Source: Microbacterium sp. LWO13-1.2 (GTDB lineage Bacteria; Actinomycetota; Actinomycetes; Actinomycetales; Microbacteriaceae). From it: a DNA stretch of 64,000 bases. The translations under genes and the position numbers were made by a program. The DNA is taken from positions 3,410,001 to 3,474,000 of the forward strand of contig NZ_CP151634.1 in assembly GCF_038397725.1 (NCBI RefSeq). The letters run 5' to 3'. The notes below the pieces were generated by a model. The model did no database searches and was not told the origin of the DNA. It saw only the letters and a program-made list of their open reading frames with translations. Each line of letters begins with the position of its first letter. Position 1 is the first letter of the stretch. Positions 21,612 to 24,876 of this stretch are shown one piece after another.

Positions 21612-22763
21612 TCAGACTGTGATGACCTGAGCGGAGCCGAGCGGAGAACCAGGCCCCATCTCGGCTGCGATGCGATTCGCCTCTTCGATGAGCGTCGCGA
21701 CGATCTCCGCTTCCGGCACGGTCTTGATGACCTCGCCCTTCACGAAGATCTGTCCCTTGCCGTTGCCGGATGCGACGCCGAGGTCGGCTTCGCGCGCCTC
21801 ACCCGGACCGTTCACGACGCAACCCATCACGGCGACGCGGAGCGGCACGGTCATGTCCTTGAGGCCCTCGGTGACATCTTCCGCGAGTGTGTAGACATCG
21901 ACCTGTGCGCGACCGCATGACGGGCACGAAACGATCTCGAGCTTGCGCTCGCGCAGGTTCAGGGACTGCAGGATCTGATGACCGACCTTGACCTCTTCGA
22001 CCGGCGGCGCCGACAGCGAGACGCGGATCGTGTCCCCGATCCCCTCGGAGAGCAGGATGCCGAACGCAGTGGCGCTCTTGATGGTGCCCTGGAAAGCGGG
22101 GCCCGCCTCGGTGACACCGAGGTGCAGGGGCCAGTCGCCGCGCTCGGAGAGCAGGCGGTAGGCCTTGACCATCACGATCGGATCGTTGTGCTTGACCGAG
22201 ATCTTGAAATCGTGGAAGTCGTGCTCTTCGAAGAGCGACGCCTCCCAGACGGCACTCTCGACGAGAGCCTCTGCCGTCGCCTTGCCGTGCTTCTGCAGGA
22301 TTCGCCTGTCGAGGGAACCGGCGTTGACGCCGATGCGCAGAGAGACACCGGCAGCCTTCGCGGCCTCGGCGATCTTGCCCACGTTGCCGTCGAACTCGCG
22401 GATGTTTCCGGGGTTCACGCGCACCGCGCCGCAGCCGGCGTCGATCGCCGTGTAGATGTAGCGAGGCTGGAAGTGGATGTCGGCGATCACCGGGATCTGG
22501 CTCTTCATCGCGATGATCTTCAGAGCATCCGCGTCATCCTGGTGCGGCACGGCGACGCGCACGATCTCGCATCCGGATGCCGTGAGCTCGGCGATCTGCT
22601 GCAGAGTGCCGTTGATGTCGGTGGTCTTCGTCGTCGTCATCGACTGCACGCTGACCGGGGCATTGCCCCCGACGAGCACCTTGCCGACCTTGATCTGACG
22701 GGTCTTGCGGCGAGGGGCGAGGACTTCGGGGATCTTCGGCATCCCAAGGTTCACTGCTGGCAC
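21612..22763 (-). CDS. ispG: 4-hydroxy-3-methylbut-2-enyl diphosphate synthase (IspG/GcpE)
   Basis: IspG, 383 residues, the [4Fe-4S] enzyme that converts MEcPP to HMBPP in the MEP isoprenoid pathway. [31 protein letters not shown] and GAVRVNPGN mark the barrel; the cluster Cys are in [11 protein letters not shown] and [12 protein letters not shown] 22763 follows TAGGCT by 6 nt, giving a leaderless start. It lies near rseP and dxr, but trpEG sits between. Confidence 0.97.
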
Positions 22764-22853: not shown

Positions 22854-22862
22854 TGGTAGTTT
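22854..22862 (+). promoter_or_regulatory. Extended -10 promoter of the trp leader
   Basis: TGG-TAGTTT forms an extended -10 (TGnTAnnnT). The -10 ends 6 nt before the leader peptide ATG at 22869, so the transcript should begin at that ATG. No good -35 is seen. Confidence 0.55.
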
Positions 22863-22868
22863 CGGCCC

Positions 22869-22904
22869 ATGCTCGCGAACGTCACCTGGTGGCCCGCCTC
22901 CTAG
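22869..22904 (+). CDS. trpL: trp operon leader peptide
   Basis: An 11-codon ORF, MLANVTWWPAS, with two consecutive Trp codons (22887-22892), placed 88 bp before trpEG and overlapping the first arm of an attenuator. Low charged tRNA-Trp would stall the ribosome on the Trp pair and release region 2 of the leader RNA. No ribosome-binding site precedes it; it appears to be translated leaderless from the transcript 5' end. Confidence 0.88.
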   Translation: MLANVTWWPAS

Positions 22905-22955
22905 GCGGTGTGTTCGCGTTCCCACGAATCCAGACCGCCTCCGGGGCGGTCTTTT
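22894..22955 (+). promoter_or_regulatory. trp attenuator (regions 1-4)
   Basis: Four pairing segments are visible. Region 1 (22894-22899, CCGCCT) pairs with region 2 (22903-22908, AGGCGG). Region 2 (22903-22909, AGGCGGT) can instead pair with region 3 (22934-22940, ACCGCCT) as antiterminator. Region 3 also pairs with region 4 (22945-22952) as terminator. Region 1 starts directly after the tandem Trp codons, so a stalled ribosome would mask it. This is the classical class-I attenuation arrangement. Confidence 0.88.
22932..22955 (+). terminator. Intrinsic terminator of the trp attenuator
   Basis: Perfect 8-bp stem AGACCGCC/GGCGGTCT (22932-22939 and 22945-22952), a 5-nt loop, and a T-run at 22952-22955. 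It ends 37 bp before the trpEG ATG. Confidence 0.88.
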
Positions 22956-22992
22956 CGTTGGGCCGAGCCGGAGCACCGCACAGGAGACATCG

Positions 22993-24876
22993 ATGACCCT
23001 CTCACGCCTCGCCGAGCTCACCGCAGATCCGGCGGCATCCTTCGTGCTCATCGCGCGCGACGGCGCCGACACCGTCGAGCTGCTCACCGGTGAAGTCTTG
23101 GACGTCGACCTCCTCGCCGACATCCCGCTCACCATCGACGGCACTCCCCGCGAGATCTTCGCCATGGTCCCGTACCGGCAGGTGCGCGAGCGTGGTTTCG
23201 TCGCGCAGGATGACGCAGCACCCCTGCGGTGCCTGATCGTCGACGAGCACCTGGCCCTGCCGACCGCCGATCTCCTCGGCGAACTCCCGGAAGCGCCGAT
23301 CCCGCTGCAGGACGCCGGCTTCGACATCAGCGATGACGACTACGCCACGATCGTCGAACGCGTCATCGCCGACGAGATCGGCCGGGGCGAAGGCGCGAAC
23401 TTCGTGATCCGCCGAGACTTCACCGCGCGGATCGATGCCGACGACCGCACCGCCGCCCTCACCTGGTTCCGAGCGCTCCTCGCGCACGAGCGCGGCGCGT
23501 ACTGGACGTTCCTCGTCGTCACACCGGGCCACATCGCCGTCGGCGCCAGCCCGGAAGCGCACGTCGTCGCTCGCGAAGGCATCGTCACCATGAACCCGAT
23601 CTCCGGAACCTTCCGCCACCCGGCGGGCGGCGCCACCAAAGAGACGCTCATCGATTTCCTCTCTTCGACGAAGGAGACAGAGGAGCTCTTCATGGTCGTC
23701 GACGAGGAACTGAAGATGATGAGCGCCGTCTGCTCGGATGGCGGCCGCATCACGGGGCCGCACCTGAAGGAGATGTCGCGACTCACGCACACCGAGTACA
23801 TGCTCCGCGGACGCAGCCGCCTCGATCCGCGCGACATCCTCCGCGAGACGATGTTCGCCCCGACTGTGACCGGGTCGCCCATGCAGAACGCGTGCGCGGT
23901 GATCCGCCGCCACGAGCGCGCGCCCCGCGGCTACTATTCCGGGGTCGCTGCGCTGTTCACGCCGAATGCGGATGGCGGGCACGACCTCGACGCGCCGATC
24001 CTGATCCGCACCGTCTATCTGCAGAACGGCACCCTGCGCGTTCCGGTCGGCGCGACGCTGGTGCGCCACTCCGACCCCCACGGTGAGGTCAGCGAGACTC
24101 ACGGCAAGGCCGCCGGCGTCCTGGGCGCCATCGGAGCGATCGACCGTGATCGCGTGGCCGAGGCGCGCAGTGATGCGGATGCTCCGGCCGAAGAACACGC
24201 GCTCGCGGACGACCCGGCGATCGCCGAGCTGCTCGCCTCGCGCAACAGCCGGCTCGCGGAATTCTGGCTGAACCCGCAGGACGACGGAGCACCCGGCCCC
24301 TTCACGGGCCGCACGGCGCTCGTGGTCGATGCCGAGGACAGGTTCACGACGATGCTCGCGCATCAGCTTCGTCACCTCGGTCTGGACGTCACGATCGCCG
24401 CCTGGAGCGAGGTCCGCGATCAGGATCTGGATGCCGCTGACCTCGTCGTCGCCGGCCCAGGGCCCGGCGACCCCCGCGACGACGCCAATCCCCGGATCGC
24501 GCGGATGCGGGAGGTGGTCGCCAGACGCCTCGATCGCGACGCACCGCTGCTGGCCGTGTGCCTGAGCCACCAGATCCTCGCTGATCGGCTCGGTATCGCG
24601 CTCACCCCGCTGGACGCGCCGCACCAGGGCCTGCAGAAGTCCGTCCCGGTCTTCGGCGAGGACGCGTCGATCGGCTTCTACAACACCTTCACCGCCAGGG
24701 CGACGCCGGGAACGACGTCGATCAACGGAGCGGATGTCTCAGCCGATCCAGCGTCCGGAGACGTGTACGCGCTCCGAGGAGAGGGCTTCGCCTCCGTGCA
24801 GGGACACCTCGAGTCGATCCTGTCGCGCGACGGCATCCGCACCCTGGGGCGTCTGGTGTCGCACGCCCTGACCTGA
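22993..24876 (+). CDS. trpEG: Anthranilate synthase, fused TrpE-TrpG
   Basis: A 627-residue fusion of a chorismate-utilising TrpE domain (about 1-430; NPISGTFRHP, FMVVDEELKMMS, ITGPHLKEM, GSPMQNACAVI) and a class-I glutamine amidotransferase domain (about 435-627). The amidotransferase triad is Cys523 (LAVCLSHQ), His605 and Glu607 (VQGHLES). It makes anthranilate from chorismate and glutamine. The fusion resembles PhzE, so an ADIC-type activity is the main alternative, but the Trp attenuator upstream points to tryptophan synthesis. AGGAGA precedes the ATG. No other trp gene is in the window. Confidence 0.9.
   Translation: MTLSRLAELTADPAASFVLIARDGADTVELLTGEVLDVDLLADIPLTIDGTPREIFAMVPYRQVRERGFVAQDDAAPLRCLIVDEHLALPTADLLGELPEAPIPLQDAGFDISDDDYATIVERVIADEIGRGEGANFVIRRDFTARIDADDRTAALTWFRALLAHERGAYWTFLVVTPGHIAVGASPEAHVVAREGIVTMNPISGTFRHPAGGATKETLIDFLSSTKETEELFMVVDEELKMMSAVCSDGGRITGPHLKEMSRLTHTEYMLRGRSRLDPRDILRETMFAPTVTGSPMQNACAVIRRHERAPRGYYSGVAALFTPNADGGHDLDAPILIRTVYLQNGTLRVPVGATLVRHSDPHGEVSETHGKAAGVLGAIGAIDRDRVAEARSDADAPAEEHALADDPAIAELLASRNSRLAEFWLNPQDDGAPGPFTGRTALVVDAEDRFTTMLAHQLRHLGLDVTIAAWSEVRDQDLDAADLVVAGPGPGDPRDDANPRIARMREVVARRLDRDAPLLAVCLSHQILADRLGIALTPLDAPHQGLQKSVPVFGEDASIGFYNTFTARATPGTTSINGADVSADPASGDVYALRGEGFASVQGHLESILSRDGIRTLGRLVSHALT

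Follow-up and report, generated by a model that had tools for sequence, protein, structure and literature searches.

Attenuators of trp genes have been described in several actinobacteria. A trp attenuator is known from Streptomyces venezuelae (Lin et al. 1998, as cited in PMC1262725), and Seliverstov et al. 2005 described attenuators of trp genes in Corynebacterium and Streptomyces (PMC1262725). In Streptomyces lividans, the leader peptide trpL1 (MFAHSTRNWWWTAHPAAH) in front of trpE is described as 'transcribed leaderless' on the basis of RNA-seq and has hairpins and a U-rich stretch downstream of it; the same account gives leaderless leader peptides for leuA, leuS, ilvB, metN, thrS and trpS (PMC8079986). 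The ilvB leader peptide of C. diphtheriae is reported to be leaderless, whereas no start was found for the trp leader of this organism. In C. glutamicum the ilvBNC attenuator has a leaderless leader as well, and its first hairpin was proposed to block leaderless initiation, leaving the terminator free (PMC11857589). Mycobacterial polycysteine ORFs (Canestrari et al. 2020, as reviewed in PMC9031893) are leaderless short ORFs which sense an amino acid through the speed of ribosome elongation.

The window analysed here, a stretch of 64,000 nucleotides from Microbacterium sp. LWO13-1.2, contains a complete trp leader between ispG (minus strand, start at 22763) and a fused trpEG gene (22993-24876, plus strand), in front of which the sequence-only reading had placed it. 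The genome is a single contig of 4.0 Mb, and its nearest named relatives are Microbacterium species. We consider it highly probable that this leader is a ribosome-mediated transcription attenuator which senses charged tRNA-Trp, controls the fused trpEG and has a leaderless leader peptide. It shares with the trpL1-trpE locus of S. lividans a leader with tandem Trp codons, a Rho-independent terminator and a monocistronic anthranilate synthase gene downstream, and both leaders are leaderless, by RNA-seq there and by prediction here (PMC8079986). They differ in that trpL1 has 18 codons with three Trp, whereas the leader in the window has 11 codons with two Trp and a stop that overlaps region 2 (PMC8079986). 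The attenuators of Seliverstov et al. 2005 have in common with it the double or triple UGG, the GC-rich terminator, the poly-U and a triple of complementary motifs in antiterminator and terminator; the words 'leaderless' and 'promoter' do not occur in the main text of that paper, and the attenuator alignment given there begins with the Trp codons and so does not cover an outer 1:2 stem (PMC1262725). As for the ilvBNC attenuator, the proposed block of initiation by a hairpin is similar to the block by an outer stem that we propose below. Unlike the leader studied here it senses branched-chain amino acids, and the likeness is one of description (PMC11857589). The polycysteine ORFs are described as regulating translation of downstream genes, whereas the element in the window has an intrinsic terminator (PMC9031893).

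The sequence-only reading had put forward the leaderless leader as the unusual part. This was overrated: according to published accounts, the trpE leader of S. lividans and several other actinobacterial attenuators are already leaderless by 5'-end RNA-seq, and the leader in the window is therefore not new in kind. Less familiar is an outer stem, in which the first leader codons pair with bases that follow region 2. A search of the open-licence literature found no paper on a trp attenuator or leader peptide in Microbacterium, and none on SCO2117.

The anatomy could be read directly; all leader features lie on the plus strand. The extended -10 TGGTAGTTT (22854-22862) ends 6 nt before the leader ATG at 22869, as had been claimed. 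No -35 was recognisable by eye, in that nothing resembling TTGAC was seen 16-18 nt upstream of the -10. A promoter scan returned no sites, but it demands four of six consensus bases and TAGTTT has three, so the scan is no test of this promoter. The leader ORF (MLANVTWWPAS*, 22869-22904), recognised from the sequence and from relatives, has the 11 codons and the tandem Trp codons (22887-22892) ascribed to it before, a stop TAG at 22902-22904 and a predicted transcription start at the A of its ATG. The outer 1:2 stem, placed by folds, swap test and pair counts, consists of CGCGAAC in codons 2-4 (22874-22880) and GTTCGCG (22912-22918). The inner 1:2 stem, placed in the same three ways, has as its 5' arm CCGCCT (22894-22899) in the codons after Trp-Trp. 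Region 2, AGGCGGT (22903-22909), can pair through its first six bases with this arm as a protector or through all seven with ACCGCCT (22934-22940) as an antiterminator, so that the 1:2 stem and the 7-bp 2:3 helix of the sequence-only reading both stood. A terminator search, which found one terminator against a mean of 0.2 in shuffles, gave region 3 as the 5' arm AGACCGCCT (22932-22940) and region 4 as the 3' arm GGGCGGTCT (22944-22952), a helix that recurs in relatives. The hairpin AGACCGCCT-CCG-GGGCGGTCT spans 22932-22952 with nine pairs including one G-T and is followed by TTT, or by TTTT when the outermost A-T pair stays open. Terminator and T-run had thus been seen correctly; the length of 8 bp given for the helix becomes nine pairs when both the outermost A-T and the inner T-G count as paired.

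In the window the leader stop overlaps the antiterminator region 2 (TAG-GCGGT, 22902-22909), and since TAG shares two bases with the start of region 2, a terminating ribosome would sit on it. In relatives, the codons after Trp-Trp alternate between CCCGCCTCC and CTCACCGCA types while pairing with region 2 is kept, and the end of the peptide therefore looks shaped by RNA pairing.

Folding was in line with an attenuator: the 1:2, 2:3 and 3:4 pairings were mutually exclusive and three alternative folds were found. The ribosome-free leader RNA folded into the outer stem, the inner stem within it and the terminator (−47.8 kcal/mol). Stalled nascent RNA up to 22943 formed the 7-bp antiterminator, in which 22934-22940 of region 3 pairs with region 2, with a TTCG/CGAA extension (−17.7 kcal/mol), and the terminator formed again once a ribosome was placed at the stop codon. 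When the stall mask was applied to full-length RNA, the terminator was still favoured thermodynamically. Since it wins on the finished RNA even then, antitermination must be kinetic.

From the -10 spacing we infer that RNA polymerase would begin transcription with the first base of the leader ATG; a ribosome would load straight onto the 5'-terminal AUG. Stalling and regulation are likewise predictions from sequence. With scarce Trp-tRNA, the tandem Trp codons would stall the ribosome, whose leading edge would reach only to about 22899-22902 and stop just short of region 2, and region 2 would pair with region 3 before region 4 exists, so that transcription goes on. With ample Trp-tRNA, the ribosome would arrive at the stop and cover region 2, which would lead to the 3:4 terminator. 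If no ribosome had loaded, the two-part 1:2 structure would hold region 2 and the terminator would form again. It is plausible that leaderless loading alters the synchrony of transcription and translation.

Conservation was assessed in 80 relatives, two of which (L040 and L043) were dropped for too little sequence before the gene. A short leader ORF with Trp-Trp was present in 77 of the 78 with upstream sequence. The exception (L080, 1201-2060, a Streptomyces) is a trpEG/phzE relative without leader, up to which an apparent other cluster gene runs; it looks like a phenazine-type copy belonging to secondary metabolism. With this locus dropped and the window included, 78 leaders were counted. 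Folding gave a ribosome-free terminator of at least 5 bp in 70/78, an antiterminator of at least 5 bp in stalled nascent RNA in 72/78 and, for a ribosome placed at the stop, a terminator in 71/78. These counts are lowered by seven Microbacterium loci (L029, L031, L037, L038, L039, L041 and L046) in which the hairpin finder mis-set the terminator. A GACCGCC...GGCGGTC hairpin is present by eye in all seven. The ribosome-free terminator was also absent from the fold counts in L083, and no T-tailed hairpin was seen in L071, L081 and L083. Counted from the first Trp codon of the last pair, the stop lay 5 codons away in 70/78 leaders, and regions 2, 3 and 4 were kept across the relatives while leader codons changed.

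Pairs were counted in 30 of 64 sequences treated as Microbacteriaceae: near-duplicate removal left 39, and nine with longer or odd terminators (L022, L025, L029, L031, L034, L037, L038, L041 and L046) were left out. In these 30 chosen sequences 95.8% of cells in the terminator helix were paired, a figure favoured by leaving out the nine, and changes on both sides occurred at 2/9 pairs. The outer stem was 73-83% paired with both-sided changes at 4/7 pairs, the inner 1:2 stem 85% paired without a double change, and the 2:3 helix, nearly invariant, 89.1% paired without any pair changed on both sides. The whole structure was 86.7% paired, against 36.3%-56.4% when slid by 1-3 columns. It exceeded shuffles in percentage paired, in cells changed on both sides and in covariation score (0/500 shuffles reached each), and did not do so in pairs changed on both sides (146/500) or in further pair types (70/500). 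In an RNAalifold consensus of the 30 sequences the terminator appeared, along with a hairpin of 4 bp across the Trp codons, and nothing else; we attribute the missing outer stem to its shifts of register. In a swap test on 68 non-redundant leaders, the inner 1:2 stem lay above all permutations (16.71 versus a maximum of 16.22), and in 21 divergent leaders it did not (16.28 versus a maximum of 16.50). For the 2:3 helix the own and permuted scores were 15.62 and 15.55, and 14.54 and 14.82 in the divergent set; the motif being nearly invariant, this test is uninformative and speaks of covariation neither way. Taken together, the anatomy, the three alternative folds and the conservation support a ribosome-mediated trp attenuator.

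For the outer stem, which pairs the first leader codons with sequence after region 2, arms from one species paired better in the swap test than arms from different species. Own arms had a mean stem score of 16.14 versus 13.59 for swapped ones in the 68 non-redundant leaders (sd 0.33, maximum 14.79, 5000 permutations), and 15.82 versus 13.08 in the 21 divergent ones (sd 0.64, maximum 15.28). The arms differ by locus, being TTCACGAA/TTCGTGAA in L047, TACGCGA/TCGCGTA in L066 and TGCGAAC/GTTCGCA in L015. Minimum-energy folds contained at least 4 pairs of the stem in 75/78 leaders; when 5' ends were swapped the fraction was 0.81, and when the codons were put in shuffled order it was 0.68. The divergent set gave 19/21, compared with 0.71 and 0.74. 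Own folds were more stable than the swapped mean in 55/78 leaders and than the codon-shuffled mean in 67/78. As the stem is frequent in swapped and shuffled folds too, GC-richness by itself accounts for much of this pairing and leaves a moderate excess. In the class-wide set described below, the outer stem was supported in families f1, f24 and f30, and by energy it was weak in f22, weak to neutral in f23 and unsupported to opposed in f38. Support is good in Microbacteriaceae and weak in the Streptomyces-like family.

If formed in the cell, the outer stem would sequester codons 2-5 of the leaderless message, and its pairing with the first codons could close the 5'-terminal start site. A tentative and, in our estimate, rather doubtful extension is that the stem acts as a start-site gate particular to leaderless attenuators. 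It would pair codons 2-5 once RNA beyond region 2 emerges and exclude further 70S ribosomes, giving one short loading window per transcript. Transcripts missing this window would then terminate at any Trp level. Such a gate would take the place of the pause-and-release coupling at the E. coli trp leader, and it would represent an old actinobacterial way of keeping transcription and translation in synchrony without a 5' UTR.

For the comparative test of LEADERLESSNESS, the nearest in-frame ATG (else GTG) was picked blind to the promoter. TANNNT ended exactly 6 nt upstream of this start in 38/78 leaders and 7 nt upstream in 34/78, that is in 72/78 with the window included; the fuller TG-N-TANNNT had either distance in 57/78. 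In the remaining six (L037, L071, L074, L075, L079 and L081) a second in-frame start lay 6 or 7 nt from TANNNT, so that among the relatives alone the spacing occurred in 77, 71 of them at the nearest start and 6 at the second. Gaps of 0-5 or 8-11 nt were not seen, each larger gap up to 44 nt held 0-2 cases, and the background rate of TANNNT upstream was 19 in 20,651 positions. A Shine-Dalgarno core (GGAG, GAGG or AGGA at −20 to −4 of the nearest start) was present in none of the 78 leaders. The conserved spacing and the lack of such a core in the 78 leaders support the leaderless leader peptide of the sequence-only reading, and the case for reading the window's own leader as leaderless, although made on sequence, is strong. 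The predicted arrangement is widely shared among the relatives.

A second set, meant to avoid the bias towards closest relatives, consisted of 246 genomes sampled evenly across the class, the window's own included. A trpEG-like gene was found in 90 of them, again with the window's own. Outside this genome there were 99 matching places, of which 97 were read upstream; those left unread were G137, where the match begins at residue 211, and G135:C22, which holds the 3' half of a gene; the two trpEG pieces in G135 were taken to be parts of a single gene divided between two contigs. Within 500 nt, a Trp-Trp leader with a -10 at 6-8 nt was present in 65 of the 97 upstream regions and absent from 32, counts that are not independent events given the relatedness of the genomes. 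No Trp-Trp leader lacking such a -10 was found within 500 nt in the 97 regions. L170 has a Trp-Trp ORF without it farther up: the ORF starts 552 nt away from where the stretch read ends, which puts it slightly more than 500 nt ahead of the match. Among 1940 dinucleotide shuffles of the 97 regions, 21 had a Trp-Trp ORF and none a Trp-Trp ORF with the -10. The searches asked for Trp-Trp ORFs, which in part explains why all leaders found have Trp-Trp. Upstream of trpEG in L185 stands a single-Trp ORF, MLARGSSWRAACPAAPLMRA, whose -10 is at 6 nt; it may be a leader in which one Trp codon was lost.

Six families had leaders: 8/8 loci in f1, 18/19 in f24, 2/2 in f38, 10/12 in f22, 22/30 in f23 and 5/19 in f30, compared with 0/6 in f21 and 0/1 in f4. 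The spacing between -10 and start was kept in all six while the leader peptide, the flanks and the start codon changed. The 14 trpEG-like loci of f30 without a Trp-Trp leader were L152, L158, L162, L163, L165 and L167-L175. Leaders of the type MFAHSTQNWWWTAHPAAH, one residue off S. lividans trpL1, precede the trpEG homologues L134, L149, L151 and L153. Eight genomes carried two or three trpEG-like genes (G036, G082, G104, G133, G134, G144, G205 and G232, with loci L117, L119, L121, L122, L129, L130, L132, L135, L138, L140, L147, L148, L154, L176, L186, L188 and L189), and in each of them the leader stood before exactly one copy. This fits one attenuated copy that presumably serves the Trp pathway, with the further copies presumably serving other functions.

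The same observations bear on other explanations. Transcription might start upstream of 22854 and the leader be translated from a conventional 5' UTR with a weak or absent Shine-Dalgarno sequence. No -35 is visible at the predicted promoter, and two of 50 class-wide leaders checked (L137 and L166) have an SD-like core upstream, which would suit this explanation. It has to account, however, for the 0/78 SD cores and for TANNNT at 6/7 nt in 72/78 leaders and, through a second in-frame start, in the other six; moreover, a near-identical leader type before S. lividans trpE is described as leaderless by 5'-end sequencing. We therefore hold it to be improbable. A hairpin giving constant read-through, that is fixed-level control by a terminator with the Trp-Trp ORF being incidental or an aid to reinitiation, appears more improbable still. 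It may draw on S. coelicolor ilvB, whose regulation was unaffected by mutation of candidate regulatory codons (cited in PMC1262725), but would leave unexplained why the Trp-Trp ORF persists in 77/78 relatives while other codons change, compared with 21/1940 in shuffles, and why the stop codon overlaps region 2 in the window and keeps a fixed distance from the Trp pair in 70/78 leaders.

Another Trp-sensing device of T-box or TRAP type, as controls trp genes in Firmicutes, is the least probable of all and was rejected. Between 22000 and 24000 an Rfam scan gave Trp_leader as the sole match at E≤1, and what is conserved is a Trp-Trp ORF together with attenuator hairpins. This match (RF00513, 22881-22959, model positions 1-100) had 29.9 bits and an E-value of 0.0015 and did not reach the gathering score of 41. 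In a whole-genome search for Trp_leader at E≤1 it stood alone among the 150 of 296 candidates scored, and none of 15 sources (the window and the loci of 14 relatives) reached the gathering score. At gathering, RF00513 thus misses the leader type of the window and these 14 loci, and a family model could be built.

Control of trpEG by the attenuator described here is supported by the gene content of the genome. The fused gene encodes 627 aa, has a Shine-Dalgarno AGGAG at 22982-22986 read directly from the sequence, was the only fused anthranilate-synthase-like gene found and is the best candidate for the only anthranilate synthase of the genome. Both trpD and trpB were detected. A second trpE was considered and rejected: in the searches run, the other matches to the trpE model are best read as an aminodeoxychorismate synthase (PabB), at 321 bits slightly below its cut-off of 328.4, and an isochorismate synthase above its cut-off, and a separate amidotransferase, above the subfamily cut-off, is of the trpG/pabA kind. 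With trpD and trpB present and the other chorismate-enzyme matches so assigned, trpEG is a sensible target. The TrpEG protein (22993-24876) itself passed no NCBIfam cut-off among 25 families listed of 42 matched, and among solved structures the closest relative is 3r74, which bears the name of component I of anthranilate/para-aminobenzoate synthases and which we take to be the phenazine enzyme PhzE. Automatic annotation may thus misname what is apparently the sole anthranilate synthase candidate.

All in all, leaderless initiation at trp attenuators is not one strain's curiosity, since every Trp-Trp leader within 500 nt upstream in the genomes sampled has the leaderless -10 spacing. The trp leader loci offer a natural system for studying how transcription and translation are coordinated without a 5' UTR or a Shine-Dalgarno sequence, and they would also be suited to asking whether a stem at the 5' end sets a single loading window per transcript.
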